Below the pieces are notes generated by a model. It saw only the letters and a list, made by a program, of their open reading frames with translations. It had not been told where the DNA came from and searched no databases. Shown piece by piece: positions 954 through 19,689 of a stretch of 22,856 nucleotides of DNA (position 1 is its first letter; every line of letters starts with the position of its first letter). The stretch lies in IMG/VR virus record IMGVR_UViG_3300042904_000296, positions 1 through 22,856 of that record; one strand, 5' to 3'. The stretch comes from a virus. Both the position numbers and the translations under genes were made by a program.

Positions 954-3900
954 TTATGCTTCGGTAGGCTCGATCCAGAGCAACGGCGTGCCGGGATCGC
1001 CGCCCAACTTGCCGTCCAGGCCGCCCCAAATGATGACGCCTTCGGCGACGGCCATGATCTCGTCGATGACCTGCAACCATTTGGCCGGGGCGATTCGCAA
1101 GCCCTTGAGCGCGTCCGGCGCGGAAGGACTATAGTGCGGAGCCATGACGACGTACACGGGGCGAGGCGTGCCGCCGGCCTCCGTGTCGGCGTCCCTGCAT
1201 TCCTGCACGCGCCTTTGCATCGCGATCGCCCATGCGTCGATGTCATCCGTATAAACATAACAATCCGGGGCGAGGAATTGCAGCTTTTGGATGAATGGCG
1301 CTTGCTCCTCGTGCGCCGTCGCCATTTCCGATTCGTACGTCGGTCCCGAAGGTGTGGCGTGCGCGTACACCGAAGGCGGCCAAAGATAGCCGCCCATCGG
1401 GATCGGCGTCACCGTGTTGTCGGCCCATGAATCCTGCACTTCGTCCATCAAGTCGGCCATGAGCAAGGCGACGGCCGTCCGCTCGACGGAATCCAACGGG
1501 TCCGCGCCGATCGTCGGCTCGAACTCGGTCGCCTCCAAATCCCAAACCAAAATGTCGCTGCGGATCGGCGTCGGATTCCAATAGGCTTCGGCGGCGAAAC
1601 CGTGATGATGCAGGAAATCCTCTTCGCCCGTAGCGCCCAGCGCCGCGAATCGATAAGCGTCGCGAATGCGAGTTTCGTCGGCCGGATCGGTGTAGTCGGG
1701 AAAGCTGTTGGGGTCATCTTCCGCTGGATTGAAACGATTCAAGTTGGCGTCGTAGACCATGAACGCCACATCGAAGCCGAGCGGACGCATGTCCGGCATC
1801 CCGTCCCAAAAGCTCGCGTCATAGAAATTTTTGCCCGGCCAGCGGTCTTGTTGAATCCACCGGCTCAAGAGGCTCATGTTGAACGACGTGTCCTCATAGT
1901 CGTCGTCCGGCTCCAAAAGGCCGGAGCCTTCCACACCGCCCGGTTCTTCGGGGTCTTCCTCCTCCGGCGGCGGCTCGACATAAGCCGGCGTGTCGCTTTC
2001 AGGGTAGTAGACCGGATAAGAGGCGTTTCCCCGGCCGGGGTTGTCCAGATCGCGGTTGTCTTGATAAAGGACGACGTAGATCGGTTCGCCGGGCGTCAAG
2101 CCGTCCGTCGTCTGCATCGCCGCCGTGTAAGTCGCCTCCGCGTCGTTGGTGAGGATGATTCGCTTGTGCGAGTCGTCGGCCGTCCGGTAAATCCAAACCT
2201 CGTACTTCTCGCTCGGAGCGCCCATCGGAGCGCCCGACTTGCTGAACAGTTTGAAATACAACCGCGAACGACGAATCCAGGTGAAATGAAAATCGTCGGT
2301 CGCCGTGTCCCGCGTGATCTTGATCTGGCAGGGCGAAAAACACTTCAAAGGACGGCTGGTGCGAAGGATCGGACCTACTGCGTCCACATCGTCCCTCGTC
2401 GCTCCCTTCGGAACCGCCTTGTAATACTTCTCGACGTTGTGTTGGTCCTCGTCATAGCTCTTGGTGCGCACCGGCGGCACGCGGATCAAAACCACCTTGT
2501 CGCCGATGGCGTGTCCCGCCATGCGATCCTTGGTGTCCCGCCGGCCGCGAAGCAGCTTACGCAGCTTGTACGTCTTGGGGGCGATCAACTCCGCGTTGCA
2601 GAAGGCGACGATCTCGCCGGCTCCGTTGCTTCCCGTCGCGACGAACAAATGGTTCTGGCCGGCCAAGACTTCCAATTCCGTCTTGGTCGTCAATTCGCCT
2701 TCCAGCATTTCAACCGTCAAGCTGGTGCGGTCGTCCCAAATGTTCAAGGGACCGACGGCCGGCAGGGCGTCCACGGTTTCGCCCGCCATCGCCTCGCTTT
2801 CAAAGTCGATGTACTGGAACCACTCGCCGTCGGCGGCGATGGACTGATAGACCCGCACGCCTTTGAAAGTGATTTCCGGCTCTTGCAGGACGACGGCGCT
2901 GTAGAACCGACGATGCGGCGTGTCCGATCCCGGCAACAGCGGGATGTCCATCGGGATGAAATCGACGGTGGGGATGTCGTCCACACCCGGCTTCTGGATC
3001 ACCGGATCGTCCGCTTCGGCCGTGACCGTCAAAGTGTGGCTTTGCTCAGTGACGCCTTTGCATTCCAAGACGAAGTTGTGGCCTCGCGTGACGCTGGTGA
3101 CGCGGACGCGAACGATGCGGTTCCCGACCGGGAGATCGAGCAAGTCGGATTCGATGAATTTCAACTCGCTCGGCGGCATCGTCCAAGAAACATCGGTGTT
3201 CTCGGCGAACGATGACCAAAGCGAGCGGCGGGCGATCGTCTTGGCGTCGCTGGCCGACATGACGATCGGAAGTTCGATCGTGGCGATGTTCTTCGTCGGG
3301 GCGTTCAAGCGTCCATCGCCTTGAGCCTCTTTCTGAAAATCCGATTCGTAGTCGATATAGCTGACGACGACCCGCTGCGGCAAATCAAGGTCGGGATTCT
3401 GCGTCCGACTCACCTTGCGGACGACTTCCCCGCCTTCTTCCCTCGCCGCCAGCATGTCGGCCGAAACGAGTTGCGGCGTGAAATCCTTCCGCTTTCGGAA
3501 ATACAAGACCCCATCCCGCTCCTGCGCCACGAATTGAAACGCGAGCATCAAAGGCTCAAGCAATTTCAAAGGCGACTGCGGACCCGCCGTGCTGTAGCCG
3601 ACCACTTCCTCGCCTTGAAGCCAAATGGCGTCGATGTCCGTCGCGGCCTCCCGGCCGGAGCGGGACCAGATGGCTTCGACGGCTTGGGAGACGAGCGCTT
3701 GATCGGACTTGCGGACCTGGGCGTTGATGTTCGGGACTCGGCCGCCGAACTCGTTCAAGGCCAATTGCTCGATGACGAAATAAGCGGTGCCTCGATAAGC
3801 CGGGACTTCCCCGACGCCTTCAGCCGCCTCCATCAAGGGATCGGGAAGCTGGCCGAGCGTGCCTTGATAGACCGTGATTGCGGTGCAGTAGGCGGTGTCG

Positions 3901-4043
3901 GCGACGCCGTTCTCGTAGATCACGATCGAGTCGGCCCAAATCTTGTCGATGGCGACAATCGGACCTTCGCAGACCGCGACCGCCAGATCGACGAAATAGC
4001 TTCGCCGAACGACCGTTTGCCCGCCACCGCCGCCTAGTCCCAT
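954..4043 (-). CDS. GTA-like tail-tip hub protein with C-terminal TIM-barrel-like domain
   Basis: This 1029-aa protein corresponds to the main part of the large tail-tip (host-specificity J-like / rcc01698-like, Phage-tail_3) protein. After the glycine-rich start MGLGGGGGQT, residues 15-45 carry the SYFVDLAVAVCEGPI and IWADS motifs. Residues 83-110 carry the characteristic AYRGTAYFVIEQL...FGGRVPNI segment. Residues up to about 640 fit hub and fibronectin-like domains. An acidic proline-rich linker lies at about 689-708. The region from about 715 to the end looks like a glycoside-hydrolase-type barrel, with VWDLEATE near 828, a YLWPPS segment near 886 and AEGVIIWGG near 1003. This C-terminal part resembles the stand-alone protein at 19691-20644. 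In relatives the N-terminal piece encoded by the preceding gene is fused to this protein. The start follows TAGGAGTTTGAAATG. Confidence 0.85.
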   Translation of the reverse strand: MGLGGGGGQTVVRRSYFVDLAVAVCEGPIVAIDKIWADSIVIYENGVADTAYCTAITVYQGTLGQLPDPLMEAAEGVGEVPAYRGTAYFVIEQLALNEFGGRVPNINAQVRKSDQALVSQAVEAIWSRSGREAATDIDAIWLQGEEVVGYSTAGPQSPLKLLEPLMLAFQFVAQERDGVLYFRKRKDFTPQLVSADMLAAREEGGEVVRKVSRTQNPDLDLPQRVVVSYIDYESDFQKEAQGDGRLNAPTKNIATIELPIVMSASDAKTIARRSLWSSFAENTDVSWTMPPSELKFIESDLLDLPVGNRIVRVRVTSVTRGHNFVLECKGVTEQSHTLTVTAEADDPVIQKPGVDDIPTVDFIPMDIPLLPGSDTPHRRFYSAVVLQEPEITFKGVRVYQSIAADGEWFQYIDFESEAMAGETVDALPAVGPLNIWDDRTSLTVEMLEGELTTKTELEVLAGQNHLFVATGSNGAGEIVAFCNAELIAPKTYKLRKLLRGRRDTKDRMAGHAIGDKVVLIRVPPVRTKSYDEDQHNVEKYYKAVPKGATRDDVDAVGPILRTSRPLKCFSPCQIKITRDTATDDFHFTWIRRSRLYFKLFSKSGAPMGAPSEKYEVWIYRTADDSHKRIILTNDAEATYTAAMQTTDGLTPGEPIYVVLYQDNRDLDNPGRGNASYPVYYPESDTPAYVEPPPEEEDPEEPGGVEGSGLLEPDDDYEDTSFNMSLLSRWIQQDRWPGKNFYDASFWDGMPDMRPLGFDVAFMVYDANLNRFNPAEDDPNSFPDYTDPADETRIRDAYRFAALGATGEEDFLHHHGFAAEAYWNPTPIRSDILVWDLEATEFEPTIGADPLDSVERTAVALLMADLMDEVQDSWADNTVTPIPMGGYLWPPSVYAHATPSGPTYESEMATAHEEQAPFIQKLQFLAPDCYVYTDDIDAWAIAMQRRVQECRDADTEAGGTPRPVYVVMAPHYSPSAPDALKGLRIAPAKWLQVIDEIMAVAEGVIIWGGLDGKLGGDPGTPLLWIEPTEA

Positions 4044-4843: not shown

Positions 4844-5038
4844 TTAAGTCCTCACCATCAAGGCCAAATGGGCGGCGCAGATCGCCACGGCGAAAAAGAA
4901 GGCGACGCCGGCATTGAACCAGAAACGATGATTTTTGTGGTGCAGTAGCCGGTCCCGCTGATTCACGATGGTCCAGACGAGGAACCAGACGGTCACGAAG
5001 TCGATCAGGTCCAAGACGATGAAGAAACTGGTTCTCAT
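4844..5038 (-). CDS. Small two-helix membrane protein, possible holin-like
   Basis: The 64-aa product has two clear hydrophobic segments: residues about 5-26 (FFIVLDLIDFVTVWFLVWTIV) and about 39-62 (ending FFFAVAICAAHLALMV). They are separated by a short basic loop (NQRDRLLHHKNHR). The ATG overlaps the stop of the BR0599 gene by 4 bases (ATGA) and the stop lies one base before the NlpC/P60 start (TAAAATG), so it is tightly coupled to both. Two-helix membrane proteins next to a peptidoglycan hydrolase are often holins, but this peptidase looks tail-associated, so a holin role is only a guess. A role in superinfection exclusion or membrane passage during entry is equally possible. I do not recognise a specific family. 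Confidence 0.72.
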   Translation of the reverse strand: MRTSFFIVLDLIDFVTVWFLVWTIVNQRDRLLHHKNHRFWFNAGVAFFFAVAICAAHLALMVRT

Positions 5039-5892
5039 CCTATCGGCCCTCGAATCATGGCGTCCGTGCCAATCAGGAATGGAAATCCTCCGAAGTTCGC
5101 CACGTTGTCATATTCCTTGCACGTCGAAAGGCGCAGGTCGCAGCCGGGATAGATTTCAAACGAGTCGCCCACTTCGATTGCATAAGGCGTTTCAAGCGCG
5201 AATGAAATCTGCCCGCCTGCGGTCGAATTGAAGACTTCATGTCGCAAGCCGGCGTTGTCGCCGGTCGTCCACACCACTTCGCCATAGTCGAAATAACCGT
5301 CCACGCCGTCGAGCGTCGGGGCGGTGAACACGCGATTCGACTCCTGCACGCTGCCGACGCTGGCCGTCTGCACCAACGTCTCTTTGGGATAGCGGCAAAC
5401 TTCGTCGCCGAACACATGGTCGCAATCGCGGGAATAGACCCTTCCCACGTCCTTGCGAAGCCAAGCCGGCTGACCGGAGAGTTGGGCTTTCCACATTTCA
5501 GCGGTGTAGGTGACGCCGGTGATGTAGTAGATGTTCTTTTGAAAGAATCCGGCGTGAGGATGGCGATGATCGACAAGAAGCTCGACGATCATGGCGTTCT
5601 GATATTTCCCGGCCGCCAAGTCGTCGTCGGTGATCGACTCGTCGGCGATGATGCCGACCGCCTCCAAATTGTGTTCGCGGACGCCGGCTTGCTTTTCCCG
5701 CGCGCTGGCGTCGAAGCCGCCGGCCGGAACATAGCTTTCCTCGGTCGTAGCGTAAGTGAACCGGAGCGGGGCGTTATGATCGGTAAAAAGGAAAACCTCT
5801 CCATCCGTCCGCTCGATCCGCCAAAGCGAGGCGAAGCGATGCACCTTGCGGAGAAGCAGACCTCTCATCGTTTCCGACAACGCCAACGGCAT
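5035..5892 (-). CDS. Phage BR0599/DUF2163 family tail protein
   Basis: The 285-aa protein beginning MPLALSETMRGLLLRKVHRF matches the BR0599/DUF2163 tail family found between DUF2460 and NlpC/P60 genes in GTA-like tails. Recognisable blocks are WRIERTDGEVFLFTDHN, FTYATTEESYVPAGGFDASA, a block 'LEAVGIIADESITDDDLAAGKY', RDCDHVFGDEVCRY in the middle, and a C-terminal GDSFEIYPGCDLRLSTC...F.NVANFGGFPFL. The Cys residues in the CDH, EVC, GCD and STC blocks are the conserved pattern; they resemble an iron-sulfur or zinc-binding cluster reported for tail-tip proteins of this group. I chose the internal ATG at 5892 because the longer frame overlaps the preceding gene. TGAAATG joins the two genes. Confidence 0.85.
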   Translation of the reverse strand: MPLALSETMRGLLLRKVHRFASLWRIERTDGEVFLFTDHNAPLRFTYATTEESYVPAGGFDASAREKQAGVREHNLEAVGIIADESITDDDLAAGKYQNAMIVELLVDHRHPHAGFFQKNIYYITGVTYTAEMWKAQLSGQPAWLRKDVGRVYSRDCDHVFGDEVCRYPKETLVQTASVGSVQESNRVFTAPTLDGVDGYFDYGEVVWTTGDNAGLRHEVFNSTAGGQISFALETPYAIEVGDSFEIYPGCDLRLSTCKEYDNVANFGGFPFLIGTDAMIRGPIG

Positions 5893-5893
5893 T

Positions 5894-6154
5894 TCATTCG
5901 CCCTTGTAATGGACTTTCTTGATCCAGGCCGTCCGAGTTCCGTTTTTGGCTGACTTGGGCAGACGAACATGGACATGCAAATCCATGCCCTGTTGCGATC
6001 CGCCCAACTTCGTCACCGGGATGTAGGTGCGGCCTTTGACGAACTTGATCTCCGACTTGGGAAGCTCGATCGTCTCCTTGCCCTGGACGCCATCCAAGGT
6101 GAATTCGCAGTTCTCGCCCGAATCGGCCGTCACGGTTCCATATGCCAAACCCAT
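5894..6154 (-). CDS. Hypothetical 86-aa tail-region protein
   Basis: The product begins MGLAYGTVTADSGENCEFTL and appears to be a small all-beta protein: alternating hydrophobic residues, IELPKSEIKFVKGRTYIPVT, then MDLHVHVRLPKSAKNGTR and a basic end. The start at 6154 is chosen because the upstream gene stops at 6156 and the junction reads GGAGTTTTGAAATGG, with GGAG in ribosome-binding position. The in-frame extension upstream would overlap the glycosyltransferase. It sits between a glycosyltransferase and the BR0599 gene, where GTA-like tails normally have nothing, so it may belong with the glycosyltransferase as an accessory pair. I do not recognise a family. Confidence 0.68.
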   Translation of the reverse strand: MGLAYGTVTADSGENCEFTLDGVQGKETIELPKSEIKFVKGRTYIPVTKLGGSQQGMDLHVHVRLPKSAKNGTRTAWIKKVHYKGE

Positions 6155-6155
6155 T

Positions 6156-7181
6156 TCAAAACTCCGTTCGTTCGATCCATTCCTTCCGCCATCGGAACAC
6201 TTCAAATTCCAACGGAAGGCTGGGGATCATGGTCTGCTCGTCATGCGATTGCGCGTTGTGCCGAAACAGTTTCTTTCCACCTTTCGGACGCAAGGTGAAC
6301 TTGTCCTTGCACCGATGCACGAACGCCGCCCGGCCATCCATGTCGTATTGTAGCAGCGAGTGGCCGACCATGCACCAGCGATGCGACGGCATGGAGTACG
6401 GAGTTTGAAAATACCTCCACGCCAGGGCGAAGGATTCCTTGTCGCCCCAAAACAATTTGTAATACCAATCGCTGTGATCGTTGATCCAATCCGCCAAGGC
6501 GAGTTGCCGCCAATGACGTTCGGTGTCCACGATCATCTGGCCGCTCTCAAAGCTCCATTGAGGCTTGTCGTCCACGCCGAGCGCGCGCCAAGTCGCCGGA
6601 GCCAGATCGTGCGCTTCGTCGTCCGGCCAAAACATCGCCCCGTCGCCTTGGGACATGTATTTGAAAAACAATCGCTGAACCGGTTGGACCGGATAGCAAT
6701 CGGCGTCCAGATACAGAACATGACGGGCGGCGGACTGACGCAGGGCGAATGGTTTCAAATGCCAACCACCGAAATTGCGGCGACAGGATCGGCAACCGCC
6801 ATAGGCTTGAGCGTTTCGGAGATGGACTTTCAACTCATCGAACAATTCCCATTGTGGCTCGGTCGGCATCTCCCCACGATCGCCCATGTAGAACACTTCG
6901 ATCCGACCTGTGAATCCAAGATGGCGTACGGCCTTGGCGACGATCCAAGCGCCCATCAAATAATCCCCGCCGCCGCAGATCACGACGCCGAAGCCATCCT
7001 TGTTCAAATAAGGACCATTCAAGCCGGCGGCGAATCGATTCATTTCCAAGACGTGAGCCAATTGCACGTTCCGCCAACCAATCGACGCCTTCGGCCATTC
7101 CTCGCCGGGAAGGGGAGGACGTTCGATCAAGGGAATGATCGCCTCGACCGGAGTGTTTCGTCGAACGTCGGAATATTTCAC
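6156..7181 (-). CDS. Glycosyltransferase, putative mannosyltransferase-like, GT-A type
   Basis: The 341-aa product resembles nucleotide-sugar-dependent glycosyltransferases of the MNN1-like mannosyltransferase type. An N-terminal beta-alpha unit (GVVICGGGDYLMGAWIVAKA) is followed by IEVFYMGDRGEMP, then GGWHLKPFALRQSAARHVLYLDADCYPV, which contains the DxD motif D159-A-D161 expected to bind the metal and sugar nucleotide. FESGQMIVDTERHW (about 211-224) matches the acceptor-side motif of the group. I chose the GTG at 7181 because its GTGA overlaps the TGA stop of the preceding gene by 4 bases. The ATG at 7265 would overlap that gene by 88 bases. There are no membrane segments, so it should act in the cytoplasm. 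The donor, the acceptor and the sugar are unknown. It may decorate tail proteins or host surface glycans. Confidence 0.78.
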   Translation of the reverse strand: MKYSDVRRNTPVEAIIPLIERPPLPGEEWPKASIGWRNVQLAHVLEMNRFAAGLNGPYLNKDGFGVVICGGGDYLMGAWIVAKAVRHLGFTGRIEVFYMGDRGEMPTEPQWELFDELKVHLRNAQAYGGCRSCRRNFGGWHLKPFALRQSAARHVLYLDADCYPVQPVQRLFFKYMSQGDGAMFWPDDEAHDLAPATWRALGVDDKPQWSFESGQMIVDTERHWRQLALADWINDHSDWYYKLFWGDKESFALAWRYFQTPYSMPSHRWCMVGHSLLQYDMDGRAAFVHRCKDKFTLRPKGGKKLFRHNAQSHDEQTMIPSLPLEFEVFRWRKEWIERTEF

Positions 7182-7618
7182 GATTGGACCGTTGGGAACC
7201 TTCGCTTGTTGCAGAAGCCGGAGCCGAGATAGACGTTGGCTTGCGCCAACCGCCCACCGCAACATTTGGCTCCCACTTCACATTCGACGTTCAGCTTGTC
7301 GGCGGTGTTGAAGCCTTTGAACGAGCCGCAGCTTTCGCAGATAGGGCGAACGGAATCGGCTCGCTCCTCGACCTGTCGCATGATCGCCTTGGCCTCCGGC
7401 GAATCCGGCAGATCGACCATGACGCCCAACTGCGAATTGGACACGGCCTTCTTGAAGCCTTTGAAACCCATCGGCACGCCGAAAGGGCAAGCGATTTCAA
7501 AGTTCAATGGCATTTCATAGACGGCCGACCAGCCTTTGCGATAGCGATCGTCGGCGGATCGGCATTCCCGGCAGTTGAGCCGATCCTTGCACATGGGGGT
7601 TTCAAGGAACTTCTGCAT
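7178..7618 (-). CDS. Cys-rich putative zinc-binding protein
   Basis: The 146-aa product starts MQKFLETPMCKDRLNCRECR, with C10, C16 and C19 forming a C-x5-C-x2-C cluster, then FEIACPFGVPMGF (C44). The C-terminal half carries CESCGSF (C94, C97), C113, the CC pair at 119-120, and C136. The spacing suggests one or two structural zinc sites rather than disulfides, since there is no signal peptide. Small proteins with CKDR..CR.CR N-termini occur near phage tail and glycosyltransferase genes, but I cannot name a function. The gene overlaps the glycosyltransferase by 4 bases, which suggests coupled translation and possibly a joint task. An alternative ATG at residue 9 gives a protein starting MCKDRLNCRE. 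Confidence 0.72.
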   Translation of the reverse strand: MQKFLETPMCKDRLNCRECRSADDRYRKGWSAVYEMPLNFEIACPFGVPMGFKGFKKAVSNSQLGVMVDLPDSPEAKAIMRQVEERADSVRPICESCGSFKGFNTADKLNVECEVGAKCCGGRLAQANVYLGSGFCNKRRFPTVQS

Positions 7619-7629
7619 TTCACATCATC

Positions 7630-8658
7630 CTAGAAGGCCACCGTGCAGGTGATGTCCAAGCCGCCGCCTCCGCTCACCGGATAATCCCCGTTCGCCGGGC
7701 ATCGGGATTCCGTCGTGTTGTTGAACAAGTACGACGGATAGGGCGTGAGAAGGACTTGCAACCGGACGGTCCAACCCACTTCCGTGCAAAAGAGGGTGGC
7801 TTGATAGAATCCCACCACCGGACTCGCCCATTGGCTCTCGCCGTCCCAAGTGACCGTGTAGACGCCGGCAGCGCCTTCAAACAGGTCCTCGCCGCCGATC
7901 GTGACGGTTCCGCTGGTGCGACAAGGGCCGGGAAGATCGTCGCAATCCTTGTCACCAAGCGGCGGATATACCGGGTCCGGGTCTTCGGGATCGACCGGAG
8001 GATCGGGAACGTCGTAGGGGTCCGGCGGTTCAGGCGGAACTTCATCCTCGATGCAGATCGACGTATGCCCTTCGCTTCGCACGACCGACTTGACCAAATC
8101 CAGTTCTTCGATCCATGCGTGCCAAACTCGCGTTCCGCCGTCCGTCTTGGCGAGGTAAACGTACGCTTTGCTGCCAGCCGGCAACTTCGCCATCTTTTTC
8201 AATTGGACGAAGACCTGCAACGGGTCTTCCGGCGGCAAGGCGATGGTTTCGCTGGTGAAGGCTCCATCCACGACCAGTTCGCCGGATTCCCGGCTGATGA
8301 CTTGAAAGTGTCCGTTGTTGCCGGAATTGGCGAAGCCACTGATCGTGACCCATTGCCTTGGCGGGAACAAGTTCAGATTGTTGCCGGCCGTAAGCGTGTC
8401 GCCGGCCGCCGAGATGTTCCGGTATCCGGCCGAGAACGAAGTTGAGTGCCATTCGATCCAAATATCGTAAGCGGAGTCGTTGATGAGGACGAACCGCAGA
8501 CCAAGCGTCAGAACGTCGTCCTCCGGCGGCATCACCACGGCGATGTCGGCTCCCGAAGGATTCAACCGTTGGATGACCGGGGATGCGATGTTGAGTTGCA
8601 GGCCGGATGAGAAGCTATGATGAGCCGCCCCGCCGAACAGGGATTCGAGTGTGACCAT
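7630..8658 (-). CDS. Beta-rich two-domain tail-region protein with Pro/Asp linker
   Basis: This 342-aa protein starts MVTLESLFGGAAHHSFSSG after GGGATTTGAAATGG. Residues 1-205 look like all-beta material (VLTLGLRFVLINDSAYDIWI, WVTISGFANSGNNGHFQVIS). Residues about 208-240 form a proline- and acid-rich linker (PPEPPDPYDVPDPPVDPEDP), similar in style to the linker in the tail-tip hub. The C-terminal domain (about 245-342) has four or five cysteines (DKDCDDLPGPC, LFCTEVGW, ESRCPANG, DITCTVAF) and ends in beta strands. I do not recognise either domain. Its place between DUF2460 and the Cys-rich gene suggests a decoration or adhesion protein of the distal tail. The upstream gene stops 16 bases before the start. 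Confidence 0.7.
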   Translation of the reverse strand: MVTLESLFGGAAHHSFSSGLQLNIASPVIQRLNPSGADIAVVMPPEDDVLTLGLRFVLINDSAYDIWIEWHSTSFSAGYRNISAAGDTLTAGNNLNLFPPRQWVTISGFANSGNNGHFQVISRESGELVVDGAFTSETIALPPEDPLQVFVQLKKMAKLPAGSKAYVYLAKTDGGTRVWHAWIEELDLVKSVVRSEGHTSICIEDEVPPEPPDPYDVPDPPVDPEDPDPVYPPLGDKDCDDLPGPCRTSGTVTIGGEDLFEGAAGVYTVTWDGESQWASPVVGFYQATLFCTEVGWTVRLQVLLTPYPSYLFNNTTESRCPANGDYPVSGGGGLDITCTVAF

Positions 8659-8673
8659 TTCAAATCCCTTCAA

Positions 8674-9630
8674 TCAGAGGACGTACCAGCTTTTCGCCCC
8701 GGCTCCATCGACCGTCAAGCCCAGGATCGCGCCCTGATCGACGGCGAGCGTCTTGACCGTCGCTCCGGCGAACGTCTTGAGCGTGAATGATTCAGGGCCG
8801 ATGTTGACCAGATGGAACATCGGGCCGCCGGGCGGGACATTGGTGAAATCGGGAAGCATGACCGACAAGCCGGCGACAGTCGTTTCAAAGACGTAAAACT
8901 TGGCGTAGCCGGCCGACAGAAGATAACTGGTCCGCAGACAGACTTCGACGGCCGCCCCGCAATACGAGTCCTCGTTCACTTCCAAGCCGTCCGCCAACTC
9001 GATGATCGGAAGGGATTCGACATGGCCGTGGCCGTAGTCGTCCAAGGCGGCCTGCAAGGCATTCAGGTCGATGCTCTTGTCGAAACGGACAGGCACTTCA
9101 AATTCAAAGCCTGCGGTGACGGAGACGCCGTTCCCCGGCGCACTGGTGAAGGTGACGATCCCCGTCGTCGTGTCCACGGTCCAACCGCTGCTTTGGTTGA
9201 CACCATCCAAGGCGATCTTGACGGTGCCGGAGATCGGCTTGGTGATGTTGCGGATCGTGGTTCCGCTGTCGTCCGTGTACCGCTTGACCAACTGGAACAA
9301 TTGCTTGGTGCCGTTGCCGCTTCCGAGAAGCTGGTCGGCGTTGGTCGTAGCGCCGATATGGTCGGCGTTGCTGGAAAAGTCCAAGGAGTCTTTGAAACGG
9401 AATCCGTTGGCCGCGCCGCCGCGAGCGATGAAGAAGGCCGTCATGGCGGCCAATTGTTCCCGGCTCTTGATGGCGTACGACACGTCGCCCATGCGCTTGC
9501 CCGCGCCAGACCATCGCCGCACGCGCTGCTCGCCGCCTGAATCCAATTCGATGACGCTGGTGTTGAAGCGAGGGCCGAAGGTCGTTCCGTAGCTGAGGAT
9601 CGCGGTCAAACTTATTTCGTGAAACGCCAT
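8674..9630 (-). CDS. DUF2460 distal tail protein with C-terminal extension
   Basis: The first 205 residues or so match DUF2460 (TIGR02217-type) distal tail proteins of GTA-like phages. The order is ISYGTTFGPRFNTSVIELDSGGEQR-like N-terminus, RRWSGAGKRMGDVSYAIKS, AAMTAFFIARGGAANGFRFKD, LFQLVKRYTD, then GTVKIALDGV..SGWTVDTTTGIVTFTSAPG and VPVRFDKS. These proteins form the ring joining the tail tube to the tail tip. Family members usually end near 210 residues. This one continues for about 110 residues of beta-rich sequence ending SWYVL, with LVNIGPESFTLKTFAGATVK resembling modules seen in phage decoration proteins. The ATG at 9630 follows a TAA 10 bases upstream. The ribosome-binding site is weak (GATGG). 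Confidence 0.85.
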   Translation of the reverse strand: MAFHEISLTAILSYGTTFGPRFNTSVIELDSGGEQRVRRWSGAGKRMGDVSYAIKSREQLAAMTAFFIARGGAANGFRFKDSLDFSSNADHIGATTNADQLLGSGNGTKQLFQLVKRYTDDSGTTIRNITKPISGTVKIALDGVNQSSGWTVDTTTGIVTFTSAPGNGVSVTAGFEFEVPVRFDKSIDLNALQAALDDYGHGHVESLPIIELADGLEVNEDSYCGAAVEVCLRTSYLLSAGYAKFYVFETTVAGLSVMLPDFTNVPPGGPMFHLVNIGPESFTLKTFAGATVKTLAVDQGAILGLTVDGAGAKSWYVL

Positions 9631-9642
9631 GATGACCCATCG

Positions 9643-11826
9643 TTAAGATTGACGGACGGCGCGAGCCATCCGAGCCGCGATCTGTCGCTCGCTCGCTTTG
9701 AAGCCAGCCACGTCTTGCACGCCATACACGTTCACGTTGACGGTGGAGCCGCCACCGCCGGCCACGCCCAATCGCCCGTCCGCCGTGCGGGACAGCGGCA
9801 TGACGGCTTCCGGCCCGCGTTCGCCCAAGACACCCATGCGTCCGCCACCGTACATGAAGCCATGCGGCGAGTTGAACACGCCGCCACTAGCGAACTTCGG
9901 AATGGGGGCAATGGCAGAAGCAGCAGAGAATCCCGCGCCAACTGCCGCTTGAGAGCCGGCGGCCACAGGGTTGAATCCACCACCACCAAACATATTCAAA
10001 AACCCGCCTGTCAATTGGCTGACCAATCCAGCCAACGGAGCCGTAACGGTTTGCCGGATGACAAGCCGAGAGATGTCCTCCAGCAGCGATCGCATGGCAT
10101 CACCGAACGATTTGACATGCAGAATCGCATCCTCGAAATTCCGGGCGAACGCCTCACCAACATCATCGGCAAAAGTCCGAATCCGCCGCAACTGACGACC
10201 GACTTTCTCCAACTTCGCTTCAACCTCTCCATTCAAAAGCTCGTTGCGAGTCGGCTGCGTAAACCGTTGTTGCGGATCGGAGTCGCGGATCGCTTTCAAC
10301 GATTCGTCGATCTGCTGCTTCCATTGGGAGATCGGAATGTCCAAGCCGGTTCCGACGAAAAGCTGCCTCGCCTTGTTCGACAAGGCTTCCATCGCTTTCA
10401 AAGCATCCTCCGCGCCAATGTCGCTAAAGGATTTATACGTCTTGTCCTCGAACTCCCTTTGGATGGCAAGTCGGCTTTGTCGTCCAATCTCCGCTACCTT
10501 TTGGATTTCAGCGGCATACTTGGCGTTGTTGGCACTGACTTGATCCAAAAAGCTGCCCGATCCGTCACCCAGGAAGGCGTCCTTGAACGCTCGGCCGATG
10601 ATCTTGAAATTCTCAGCCGCTTGTTGCAATTCCAATTGCAATTTTTGGATCGTCTCGATGGCGTGACTGCCGAACTCCTGAACGGGTTGAAAATTCTCGT
10701 ACGCCCATCGACCAATCTCATAACCCACCACCGCCGCCAATGAAACCATCAGCAGTTTCATCGACGTGGACGCCTTGTCCGTCGCCGTGGCCGCAAGGAA
10801 AATCTCCCTTGCCATGCCGGCGAACATTGAAACAGCTTGCAAGCCGATCACCACGCCCACCGAAATGGCGATGGTTTGGATGGCGTCGGCGAGAAGTCGA
10901 GCCAGCTTTTCATTCGCGGCGAATTGCGGCTGCAATCCCAACAGGACGCGGGCGGTGTCCGAAGTCACGATCGCCAAATACTTGAAATTGTCGATCAGGA
11001 AACGGAAGCCAGCTTTGAAACTAGTAGCGCCTTCCAAAGCCTGCACAAAGTCAGCCAACACAAAATCGATGTTCTCTTTCAAGCCCGTCCAAATGGCCTT
11101 CAAGCTGTTTTTTGCGCGCTGGGAAGTTCCCTCGAAATCCTCCTGCATCCCGTAAAGGATGGCTTGCACGGCCGCCTTGGCGTTCAAGCCACCGGCTTCG
11201 GCGATCTTCTGGACTTCGGTGACGGACACCTGAGCGGCGTCGGCCAGATATTGCCAGCCTTTGATGCCGGCGTTCGCAAGCTGTCGAGTGACTTCTTCCG
11301 CCTGCACGCGGTTCTTGGTGAGGATTTGACCCAGCGCCAAGGAAATACGCTGCATTCCTTGTTCGCCGGTTCCAAGCGCCGTAGCCGCATTGGCGACGGC
11401 TTTGATGCTGGGAAGCAAATCATCGGACGCGACGCCCAAAGCCGTCATGGTGCGGGCGGCTTGCGACAGATCACCGAAAGCGAAGATGGGATTCTCAAGC
11501 GCCAGCGCCTTGATTTCCCTCATCTTCTTGGCGGCTTCTTCGGCGCTTTTGAAAAAGGTTTGGAACGCCAATTCGGTCTGTTCCAACTCGCTAGCGACTG
11601 AAAACGCCCGGCGGACCACGGCAAAGCCGGAAAAAGCGCCCAACAACCGGCCCATCGAATTGGACAAGTCCTGAGCGGCGGAACTGCTGCTTTTGAAAAC
11701 CTGCGTGAGCCGGTTGTTGACGGAGACTACCGTTTGCGAGGCGTTGACGAATTGCAGAAGACGGCTATTCGCCGTCTGCACGCCGGACGAATCGACGATG
11801 ATGTTAAGTTGAGCCAGATCGGGCAT
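9643..11826 (-). CDS. Tail tape measure protein
   Basis: The 727-aa product is mostly helical with phage tape-measure hallmarks. The N-terminus LAQLNIIVDSSGVQTANSRL is followed by a helical segment. A tape-measure domain at about 85-260 includes FKSAEEAAKKMREIKALALE, FGDLSQAARTMTALGV, GEQGMQRISLALGQI, VTRQLANAGIKGWQYLAD and AIWTGLKENID. Hydrophobic helices occur in the middle (TIAISVGVVIGLQAVSMF). The C-terminus is Gly-rich (FASGGVFNSPHGFMYGGGRMG, LGERGPEAVMPLSRTADG, STVNVNVYGVQD), the standard lambda-like end. At about 0.15 nm per residue this predicts a tail near 110 nm, a family rule of thumb. The ATG at 11826 overlaps the T-like frame by 23 bases, as in lambda G-T-H order. GGCGGAAAAGA precedes it. 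Confidence 0.92.
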   Translation of the reverse strand: MPDLAQLNIIVDSSGVQTANSRLLQFVNASQTVVSVNNRLTQVFKSSSSAAQDLSNSMGRLLGAFSGFAVVRRAFSVASELEQTELAFQTFFKSAEEAAKKMREIKALALENPIFAFGDLSQAARTMTALGVASDDLLPSIKAVANAATALGTGEQGMQRISLALGQILTKNRVQAEEVTRQLANAGIKGWQYLADAAQVSVTEVQKIAEAGGLNAKAAVQAILYGMQEDFEGTSQRAKNSLKAIWTGLKENIDFVLADFVQALEGATSFKAGFRFLIDNFKYLAIVTSDTARVLLGLQPQFAANEKLARLLADAIQTIAISVGVVIGLQAVSMFAGMAREIFLAATATDKASTSMKLLMVSLAAVVGYEIGRWAYENFQPVQEFGSHAIETIQKLQLELQQAAENFKIIGRAFKDAFLGDGSGSFLDQVSANNAKYAAEIQKVAEIGRQSRLAIQREFEDKTYKSFSDIGAEDALKAMEALSNKARQLFVGTGLDIPISQWKQQIDESLKAIRDSDPQQRFTQPTRNELLNGEVEAKLEKVGRQLRRIRTFADDVGEAFARNFEDAILHVKSFGDAMRSLLEDISRLVIRQTVTAPLAGLVSQLTGGFLNMFGGGGFNPVAAGSQAAVGAGFSAASAIAPIPKFASGGVFNSPHGFMYGGGRMGVLGERGPEAVMPLSRTADGRLGVAGGGGSTVNVNVYGVQDVAGFKASERQIAARMARAVRQS

Positions 11827-16776: not shown

Positions 16777-19689
16777 TCAAGCCGCTTGGCGTTCCGAGTA
16801 ACCGGCCAGATCAAGCGCCCCGATGTCGATCATGCTGAATTCACCGCTGGCCGGGCCGATCTGAATCCAGTTGGTTCCATCATACCGGAACCGAAGCGTT
16901 TTTCGCGTTCCATTGCTCGGCGCGGTGAACGTCTCCATCTTGAACACAGCATCCCAAGTGATCGCGCCCATCGCTCCACCTGACGAGTTCAGGATTTCAA
17001 GATCGATAGTCTGTCCAGCCAACGGATTGCTCGGCGCGGCGATGGCGAACGCCGTTCCGTTCGTCACGGCGATCCGTTGAAAATCAGCAGCCCTCGCATC
17101 AAGCGTGACCGTCGCTCCATAAGTGGCCGCGACATATGCTTGTCCAGGCAACAACTTGATGCCGCCTGTACCACGATATTTCAAACCGCCGGATTCACTG
17201 TAAAGGATGGAACCGCCGGTCGGATTGGACACAGGAGCCGCCGCACGATCACCGATGAACAGCACCTTGTCGCCAGTGCCAAAACTGCCGGTCCCGAACA
17301 ATCCAAGGTTGCCGCTGTTGGCGTTGAGATAGGACGCCCCGCCGCCCCGCAAATTGAGCCGATGATTGACGGTGGAAGTCGAGTCGTAGAAATCTACCCG
17401 CGTCGCCCCCGCGCCCGTCGTTTGGCTGAAAAAGTAAATCTGGCTGGAACTGGTTCCATCGCCAGCAAGAGCGTCGATGGTCATCGTCGTCGATCCGGTC
17501 GGAGCGGTTCGCGAAATGCCGCCTTGGAACAAGCCGGTGTAGTTCGTCGCCGACGTGGCGCGGAATGAGCCGGACGCGATCGCAAGATTCAAATTGGCCG
17601 TTCCGGTGGTGGTGAACGCCCCGCCGTCCAGATTCAACGGCGACGCGCCGCCATCCGTGATGTAATTCTTGGCGACCAGCACATCTTTCAAATCAGCGGT
17701 GGCAGCGGCCGGCGTGCCGATGTTTCGCGTGGCGACGTACGTTCCGCTGGGCGCGGGCGTAATCGAGCAATCGTCGAAGACATACCGCATCGACGTGTCG
17801 GCCGGATTGCCAAGCGCCGACGCCGCCGTGATGCCTGTCACTCGACGAATGTAGACGTTGGTTTTGATCCCGTAGTTCGTGATCCGAAGGCCGTTGGCCG
17901 GTGGATCGCTTGGATTGTCTTTGACGACCAAATCCTCGATCCGCATGTTGCGCAGTTGCACGCCGTCCGTCCCGCCGCCGTTGCCGAGGATGTAGGTGAT
18001 GTATCCTGCGTTCGCCGCCGCGACCGCCGAACGGTCCCAACGACCCGTCACAAGCACGTTGTCGATCGAAAGGTTTATATTGCAAGAGCCGGGCGTCAGA
18101 CCTTGGCTCGTCTGCAAAAAAGCGGTGAGGTTGGGCGTCGAATCCGACTCCATGACGGCATCAATTTTGAAAACGATGTTGCCGCCGGAGCCGGCTCCCA
18201 AGTCCGAACTCGGCGACAGGCCAGTGAGGTAGGTATTCGTTCCGCCGAACGCGATGTAGGTGTTCGGAACGTACGTCACGTCCAGATTGACGTTGCTGCT
18301 AAAATCCTCAGTCGCCGAAGTGGATGCGATCGAACCGTTTTGAATGCCGCCGGTGACAAGGACGGCCACCGGGGCGTCCCATTCCTTTACACGGATTTTG
18401 CCATCCACATTCTTGGAGCCGGCGAGGTAGATCGCACGATGGCATTTCTCCGCGTTGATGCGGAAGAACGAGTTGTGGCCGCTCTTGTAGGTCGCCACCG
18501 GATAGCCGACATCGTTGGTATACAACGACACATTGAAATTGTCGCTGCCGCCCACGGCGTCGTCCGCATAGTTGCCGGAATACAGACCGTACCCCATTCC
18601 CGTCAACCGACCATTGTTGACGATGAAACCCCTGACGTTGGTCTGAACGATGAAGCCGCTTGTTCCTCGCCGATATGTCGGCTGGATCGCAGAAGGCGAA
18701 CTTACCCATTGGGAAACGCCTTCAAGGATCGGATTCTCGATGGCGACGTTCTGGCAAGAGACGAATTTGAAAAATCCCCAACCGTTCGTGTTGAACGTGA
18801 AATCGTCGCTGGTGACGAGCGTCGCCCCATCAAAGACGATCCGAACGCCTTGCAAGCCGCTGAACGACATCAAGGCGTTGGGCCAGTAGACCGGCGTGCC
18901 GTTGTTGTTGGAATTCAATCCGACCAGATAACGACCGGGCGGAATAAGGATCGATCCGCCGCCTTCGGCCTGCAAGGCGGTCGCAGCGTTTTGAAACGAC
19001 AATGTGTCATTGGTGCCGATCCGCATCCGCTTGTTCAAGACGCTGGCAGTCGCGGTCGTGTCGATGGTGCAAGACTCTCCATCACCGGCGACGGCCGTAA
19101 TGATCCCGATCAACGTCTTGTTCGATCCAGTGCTGGGTTGGGCCGTTCCTGCGTTCTCCACGGAAAGCGTCTTGCCGATGTCGGCCGCGACGAAATCGGC
19201 GTTGGCGCTGCTGATCGTGGCGCTGGTCGCCGTGGTCACGGCGTCGGTCACTTCGCGCGTGTCGCCGGCCGCTCCATATTCTTTGACGCTGATAACGTCC
19301 GGTCGCTTGCCGATTTCATTCCAGTTCGTGCCGTCATACGAAAACGCGACGGCTCGCGTACGCCCATTCGGCGGCGAAAGGAAAATCGAATTGAATTTGT
19401 AGATCGAGTTCCACGTCACTTCTCCCATCGCGCCACCGCTGTCATTGCTGATGCTGATGACGAGCGTTTGGCCGGCGGTCGGCCGCGAGGGGGCGTTGAT
19501 GGTGAAGGCGGTGGCATCGGTGACGACGATCCGCTGCGTCATCCCGGCACGCGCGTCCGGCGTCATGCTGGACGAATAGGTGATCGCCTTGATGCCGTAG
19601 TTCTGCGGCCCGCCGAAATCAAACTGCGCCTGAACCGGCAAGGCGATCAGGAACGCCACCAGCAAAAAGGATTTCAAAATCGCTTTCAT
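16777..19689 (-). CDS. Beta-helix tailspike-like protein with Sec signal peptide
   Basis: The 970-aa protein starts MKAILKSFLLVAFLIALPVQ, a clear Sec signal with a likely cleavage after VQA at about residue 21. A pectate-lyase-3-like right-handed beta-helix begins near residue 132 (DVISVKEYGAAGDTREVTDA, IPPGRYLVG, then many 'V.I.N....G...G' rungs) and runs to about residue 640. A module at residues 43-128 (MTPDARAG... to YDGTNWNEIG) is repeated near the C-terminus at about 857-944 (TLDARAAD... to YDGTNWIQIG). Between them are collar-like repeats such as SGNLGLFGTGSFGTGDKVLF. Such proteins bind or cleave polysaccharide. Catalytic residues cannot be assigned by eye. The signal peptide is unusual for a virion protein. 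The ATG follows GAGGGACGATTGAG. Confidence 0.82.
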   Translation of the reverse strand: MKAILKSFLLVAFLIALPVQAQFDFGGPQNYGIKAITYSSSMTPDARAGMTQRIVVTDATAFTINAPSRPTAGQTLVISISNDSGGAMGEVTWNSIYKFNSIFLSPPNGRTRAVAFSYDGTNWNEIGKRPDVISVKEYGAAGDTREVTDAVTTATSATISSANADFVAADIGKTLSVENAGTAQPSTGSNKTLIGIITAVAGDGESCTIDTTATASVLNKRMRIGTNDTLSFQNAATALQAEGGGSILIPPGRYLVGLNSNNNGTPVYWPNALMSFSGLQGVRIVFDGATLVTSDDFTFNTNGWGFFKFVSCQNVAIENPILEGVSQWVSSPSAIQPTYRRGTSGFIVQTNVRGFIVNNGRLTGMGYGLYSGNYADDAVGGSDNFNVSLYTNDVGYPVATYKSGHNSFFRINAEKCHRAIYLAGSKNVDGKIRVKEWDAPVAVLVTGGIQNGSIASTSATEDFSSNVNLDVTYVPNTYIAFGGTNTYLTGLSPSSDLGAGSGGNIVFKIDAVMESDSTPNLTAFLQTSQGLTPGSCNINLSIDNVLVTGRWDRSAVAAANAGYITYILGNGGGTDGVQLRNMRIEDLVVKDNPSDPPANGLRITNYGIKTNVYIRRVTGITAASALGNPADTSMRYVFDDCSITPAPSGTYVATRNIGTPAAATADLKDVLVAKNYITDGGASPLNLDGGAFTTTGTANLNLAIASGSFRATSATNYTGLFQGGISRTAPTGSTTMTIDALAGDGTSSSQIYFFSQTTGAGATRVDFYDSTSTVNHRLNLRGGGASYLNANSGNLGLFGTGSFGTGDKVLFIGDRAAAPVSNPTGGSILYSESGGLKYRGTGGIKLLPGQAYVAATYGATVTLDARAADFQRIAVTNGTAFAIAAPSNPLAGQTIDLEILNSSGGAMGAITWDAVFKMETFTAPSNGTRKTLRFRYDGTNWIQIGPASGEFSMIDIGALDLAGYSERQAA

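Follow-up and report, generated by a model that had tools for sequence, protein, structure and literature searches.

Genomic Organization of the Tail Operon

The window (the whole stretch of DNA analyzed here, a 22,856-base uncultured virus record from IMG/VR) carries, on its minus strand, the tail operon of a GTA-like siphophage. In order of transcription, the operon starts with a Phage_tube_2 tail tube protein, followed by a tail assembly chaperone, a TMP_3 tape measure protein and a DUF2460 protein. Next come a protein of approximately 342 aa, a 146-aa cysteine-rich (Cys-rich) protein, a putative glycosyltransferase (GT) and an 86-aa protein, leading to a baseplate hub protein that bears both Gp84_N and BR0599 domains. 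Downstream of the hub, a 64-aa hydrophobic ORF, an NlpC/P60 protein, a 119-aa ORF matching a tail protein and an Rcc01698-like tip protein were annotated. The main features are listed below.

9643..11826, minus strand: tape measure protein TMP_3.
8674..9630, minus strand: DUF2460 distal tail protein, upstream border of the slot (profile E-value = 1e-60).
7630..8658, minus strand: variable tail protein with a Pro-rich linker, first gene of the slot; homologue at the same place in the sister virus (record L024, see below).
7178..7618, minus strand: Cys-rich partner, 146 aa with 10 Cys; cysteines kept in the sister virus, counterpart fused to the GT in viral record L046.
7178..7181, minus strand: GTGA stop/start overlap between the Cys-rich gene and the GT gene.
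6156..7181, minus strand: putative glycosyltransferase, 341 aa from a probable GTG start; PF11051/GT71-like GT-A fold (predicted), DxD motif.
5894..6154, minus strand: 86-aa orphan, no homologue found.
5035..5892, minus strand: baseplate hub with Gp84_N and BR0599, downstream border of the slot (E-values = 7e-30 and 9e-22).
954..4043, minus strand: Rcc01698-like tail tip (megatron) protein.

The three genes that the initial annotation had placed between DUF2460 and BR0599 (GT, Cys-rich and 86-aa) are indeed present on the minus strand, with the 86-aa gene (5894–6154) lying just outside the 6156–7618 interval, and the GTGA overlap that it described for the Cys-rich and GT genes is seen at 7181–7178. 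The borders of the 86-aa gene are tight, as it starts just past the GT stop and ends just ahead of the hub start. A recent import of the block was also considered, for which base composition gives no signal (GC content of 55–57% in the Cys-rich, GT and 86-aa genes versus 58% in the window). The tail module of RcGTA (g11–g15) consists of a tape measure, a distal tail protein, a hub, an NlpC-type peptidase and a megatron protein (PMC7296036), and the window has those tail genes in the same order. It differs from RcGTA by four extra genes in the slot that separates distal tail protein and hub.

The Glycosyltransferase

The GT was listed as an ORF at 6156–7265. Its close relatives align only from residue 28–32 on, and the first residues of its AlphaFold model are of low confidence. 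Because both homology and model confidence begin at approximately residue 29, translation probably begins at the GTG of position 7181, 28 codons inside the listed ORF, which yields a protein of 341 aa. Its description as a DxD enzyme of mannosyltransferase type was borne out by the match with Pfam PF11051 (Mannosyl_trans3; E-value = 6.5e-18, 65.5 bits with a cut-off of 22) and by the DxD residues (D187, D189), which are invariant in an alignment of 61 relatives. The G274-D275-K276 stretch, W283 and other residues are also invariant among these relatives. The sequence motif of the GT was found in 0 of 100 shuffles of the window. Structural comparison was based on an AlphaFold model with a pLDDT of 88 and a pTM of 0.89. 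Foldseek indicated as closest structure the yeast alpha-1,3-mannosyltransferase MNT2 of family GT71 (E-value = 3e-11), and VIA-align superposed the model with MNT2 (PDB 7xjv) at Z = 21.1 and an rmsd of 3.4 over 295 residues with 15% identity, the next family being glycogenin/GT8 (Z = 16.6). By every test available, the protein is a glycosyltransferase, with a predicted GT-A fold of the PF11051/GT71-like type. It shares with the GT71 mannosyltransferase the fold, the DxD motif and the Mannosyl_trans3 domain, but it is viral, distant in sequence (the 15% identity given above) and devoid of a membrane anchor. Transmembrane segments were found in none of the GT, Cys-rich and 86-aa proteins, so the GT is expected to work in the cytoplasm, using a nucleotide sugar. 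Searches of PHROGs and NCBIfam gave no convincing match for any of the three.

Sister Virus and Distribution of the Family

Scans of IMG/VR with a single protein (GT, hub or Cys-rich) returned no relatives, and relatives of the GT were found by a DNA motif scan followed by a profile scan of the same collection. The closest relative of the block is a 97-kb virus record (L016/L024/G001, hereafter the sister virus or L024). Synteny study showed the order tape measure, DUF2460, tail protein homologue, Cys-rich protein, GT, hub and Rcc01698-like protein, with 40% identity to the window in the GT (E-value = 1e-68) and 38% in the hub. The search for the block in other tail operons, which the initial annotation had suggested, was successful for the Cys-rich/GT pair and its tail context. 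The tail protein at 7630–8658 has its homologue at the same position in L024 (E-value = 3e-15) and shows N-terminal similarity to a 422-aa protein of L002. No counterpart of the 86-aa protein turned up in the sister virus or the other loci compared, so a conserved three-gene block is not supported. By synteny, the conserved unit is one of two genes (Cys-rich and GT), or three with the tail protein, and the 86-aa gene lies outside it.

The profile scan of IMG/VR yielded 170 stretches encoding a GT relative, of which 80 were kept as loci; together with bacterial genome contigs, these 80 loci yield 95 distinct groups of GTs when clustered at 90% identity. Many of the genomes belong to Planctomycetota and Verrucomicrobiota. 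Four members of the family used as tblastn queries against 50,697 phage records (E-value of 1e-5 or 1e-3) gave no match, and, within the collections searched, members of the family come only from uncultured viruses and from genomes of bacteria. The GT tree places the window with L024 (support of 100/98) and then with L046 (89/88); the N-terminal Cys domain is common to these three.

Regarding the tail context of the family, a tape measure gene is located 1.8–5.8 kb upstream of the GT and on the same strand in 23 of the 50 viral groups (21 after removal of two self-seeded cases), a count that is a lower bound, as tape measures diverge fast and some loci are short. Tail-linked rows cluster on the GT tree (9 changes versus 20 in shuffles), and 40 of the 41 genome-derived GT groups have no tape measure detected nearby. 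In an Isosphaeraceae genome (L105), a chromosome-sized contig of 4.8 Mb contains a prophage-like locus in which a member of the family lies downstream of a tape measure. Other neighbors were recorded as well. An FkbM methyltransferase is fused to the GT or found beside it in L012, L025 and L060; the count of FkbM neighbors was excluded, being contaminated by GT-methyltransferase fusions. In one phage clade, a radical SAM protein is encoded directly or closely downstream of the Cys-rich/GT pair (L033:3913–4767, adjacent; L029:9719–10588; L049:11376–12227).

The DUF2460–Hub Slot

According to the initial annotation, standard GTA-like tails have no genes of this kind between DUF2460 and the hub. 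This is true for standard GTA tails, but the slot is not always empty in GTA-like tails. Searching IMG/VR with the DUF2460 profile gave 77 measurable DUF2460–hub slots, 41 of them under 150 bp and 36 longer, i.e., about half of the slots in related phages are empty. The longer slots that were inspected contain varied cargo, and judged by this gene content the slot serves as an accessory site of a general kind. Among the surveyed slots, a PF11051 GT is found in those of the window and L024 only.

Several of the other slots deserve description. In L217, a related phage, the slot encodes at 6971–8086 a protein with GT2 and Glyco_transf_7C domains (PF00535 and PF02709) behind a variable tail protein, and its domain make-up resembles that of polypeptide GalNAc-transferases. 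The finding of another GT family in this position, seen in one case, would fit with selection for glycosylation at the site. The slot of L172 (5627–7446) contains a phage lysozyme and short proteins and probably represents a lysis cassette inside the tail operon. Several GTA-like prophages (L172, L177, L195, L197, L213) have approximately 1.8 kb between DUF2460 and the hub. Finally, the slot of L149 (5798–9256) bears a 1022-aa ORF with 36 cysteines and then, immediately ahead of the hub, a Cys-rich protein of 128 aa; it has no PF11051 GT.

The Cysteine-Rich Partner

The cysteines of the 146-aa protein are arranged in two clusters (C10, C16, C19, C44 and C94, C97, C113, C119/C120, C136), and the protein probably binds metal. 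All ten are kept in the sister virus at about 40–41% identity (E-value = 7.5e-27). Its structure model is poor (pLDDT of 43). A profile built from the window and L024 proteins detects the N-terminal domain in L034, just upstream of the GT (E-value = 1.1e-5, the hit from which the link to L034 is drawn), and in L046, where the domain forms the N-terminal part of the GT polypeptide (E-value = 3.3e-5). The domain of the window, with the pattern C-x5-C-x2-C-R ... C-P-F/H-G, is thus shared by three other phages, in one of them as a fusion with the GT. Written as a regular expression, the pattern occurs near GTs only in 1.8 Mb of sequence, a result that is illustrative, since the expressions for the Cys patterns were chosen after the data had been seen. 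The 719-aa viral protein of L046 (7707–9866) consists of the Cys-rich N-terminus, the PF11051 GT and a second, GT2-like domain, and its C-terminal stretch matches Erv1/Alr with 31 bits over a cut-off of 27.6. Among 34 records, no Erv1/Alr match was found besides that of L046.

Partners were also counted with a generic criterion, namely a protein of 60–260 aa with at least 6 Cys and at least 5% Cys that ends at most 150 bp upstream of the GT, or the same Cys density in an N-terminal extension of the GT. Such a partner is present in 13 of the 50 viral GT groups versus 9 of 270 other large genes of the same loci (odds ratio of 10, p = 1.3e-6), the extension clause having been applied to the GTs and not to the background. 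The thresholds are generic and were fixed after a first look at the neighborhoods, and four settings give p values from 3e-5 to 6e-7. The remaining 37 of the 50 viral groups have no Cys-rich partner by this criterion.

Fusion in L046, adjacency and gene overlap are good evidence that the Cys-rich protein and the GT work together. The initial annotation had extended joint action to all three genes; this stands for the pair, which overlaps in the window, is conserved in other phages and is fused in one of them, and not for the 86-aa protein, which is not conserved. Other partner types found next to GTs have the patterns C-x2-C ... C-x2-C-G-C ... C-P (weakly DUF6171-like) and CGxxxRxxxLN, and from their patterns they look similar in kind to the type of the window. 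A single family for all Cys partners is not proposed, as the window-type and DUF6171-like profiles aligned over 14 columns at 5% probability only. The PF19668 (DUF6171) profile does not match the Cys-rich proteins of the window or L024, and its hits in L033 and L047 are sub-threshold.

Proposed Function of the Pair

We propose, with a probability of roughly 0.5, that the two genes form a dedicated tail-decoration module in which the GT glycosylates a tail-tip protein with the help of the Cys-rich partner. Late in infection, coupled translation from the tail operon would deliver the Cys-rich protein together with a soluble GT71-like enzyme. The latter would take a sugar from a nucleotide-sugar donor, which by analogy of fold may be GDP-mannose, and place it on a tail-tip protein during assembly. 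The acceptor would most likely be the variable protein encoded one gene upstream (7630–8658), whose Pro-rich linker comprises residues 213–237 of the listed ORF, or another tip protein exposed at the surface. The Cys-rich protein would bind the GT and/or present the acceptor, and the phage would benefit from a tip sugar that alters receptor binding or shields the tip. Related pairs in the tail genes of many uncultured viruses point to particles that carry sugars added by the viruses themselves. Two observations speak against the proposal, namely that family members occur in bacterial genomes with no tape measure detected nearby (40 of 41 genome-derived groups) and that most viral groups have no Cys-rich partner by the generic criterion.

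It is unlikely, although this is the alternative that survives best, that the GT modifies a host surface glycan for seroconversion or superinfection exclusion and simply travels in an accessory site among the tail genes. A tail role is not proven by location alone, because the slots of other phages also hold unrelated cargo such as phage lysozyme. Moreover, phage GTs that alter host surface glycans are well known (works cited in PMC12619734). We favor virion glycosylation over host surface sugars because the proteins have no transmembrane segments and there is no gtrA/gtrB-type gene among the window genes scanned. With the gtr clusters of serotype-converting phages the window has in common a phage-encoded GT, but this GT is soluble rather than membrane-bound, it is embedded in a tail operon, and Pfam gave no match to the GtrA flippase or GtrB among the window genes scanned. 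The tail-gene context of the GT is also repeated in distinct lineages, and a late structural operon does not have the expression class that lysogenic conversion calls for.

The Cys-rich protein could itself be the acceptor, i.e., a small, glycosylated and metal-bound tail ornament. The tight coupling of the genes, the fusion in L046 and the Cys-rich protein that stands before the hub of L149 in the absence of a PF11051 GT are in line with such a role, which we nevertheless regard as quite unlikely, given that in L046 the acceptor would be a part of the enzyme. We are more doubtful still that the Cys-rich protein serves the tail hub by inserting a metal or Fe-S cluster, with the GT as an incidental neighbor. 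The hub of RcGTA does carry an Fe-S cluster, bound by four cysteines that are conserved (PMC7296036), and the Cys-rich protein of L149 lies directly before the hub, but L029, L033, L034 and L046 pair a Cys-rich protein with a GT and have no such hub detected near the GT. Glycosylation of phage DNA bases, as by the diverse phage GTs known for DNA hypermodification (Pyle et al. 2024, cited in PMC12619734), is highly improbable, as the fold of the GT is closest to a glycan mannosyltransferase, no thymidylate-synthase/hydroxymethylase homologue was found in the 97-kb sister record, and such homologues occur in 1 of 25 GT-bearing records, most of which, like the window, are fragments.

If the GT and its partner do decorate the tail tip, virion glycosylation would extend to a large set of uncultured phages and to a different enzyme family, and the sugar would be placed at the receptor-binding end of the tail. 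The enzyme and partner would form a compact pair whose acceptor could be found by co-expression. A wider reading is put forward tentatively, as one that we would not expect to hold in full: a widespread and so far undescribed tail-glycosylation module of uncultured phages, at least some of them phages of Planctomycetota, where the Cys-rich metal-binding protein would be the acceptor-selecting subunit of the GT71-like enzyme and GT families would interchange within a dedicated slot beside a variable tip protein.

Comparison with Known Virion Glycosylation Systems

Glycosylation of phage particle proteins is documented in a handful of mycobacteriophages. Corndog, Che8 and Myrna are mycobacteriophages with virion glycosylation, glycosylated capsids and tail tubes are known from this group, and the genes involved include gp35–gp38 of Corndog and gp110 of Che8 (PMC4351075, PMC12363180). 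That virion proteins of Corndog are glycosylated was shown later (Freeman et al. 2023, cited by both PMC12363180 and PMC12619734). The structural operon of Corndog encodes GTs and an O-methyltransferase (PMC4351075), and the GTs were not identified in the virion by SDS-PAGE/MS (PMC4351075, PMC12363180). The suggestion of a wholly new kind of module goes too far in view of these phages, since virion glycosylation was already known and the GTs of Corndog lie in a structural operon (PMC4351075, PMC12363180).

Similarly to Corndog, the window and L024 harbor a GT gene inside a virion structural operon, here between DUF2460 and the hub. The set of O-methyltransferase and GTs in Corndog also resembles the FkbM (L012, L025, L060) and radical SAM (L033) neighborhoods of the family; among the window genes scanned, no O-methyltransferase neighbor was found. 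The two systems differ in several respects. The window GT apparently belongs to another family, as indicated by the tblastn result for the 50,697 phage records, with which distant kinship would still be compatible. It is located in the tail-tip slot, whereas the Corndog GTs lie between portal and protease, and it has a Cys-rich partner. Virion glycosylation is a known idea, and the searchable literature, which includes few subscription journals, yielded no description of a PF11051 GT in this position with a Cys-rich partner.

Other Features of the Window

Between the hub and the NlpC/P60 gene, the 64-aa ORF (4844–5038) contains strongly hydrophobic segments and has no homologue found; it is possibly a small membrane protein. 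Two further proteins, at 16777–19689 (970 aa) and 21372–22853 (493 aa), are without a Pfam match, and the C-terminal part of the former weakly matches a PHROG tail protein (E-value = 5.6e-8).
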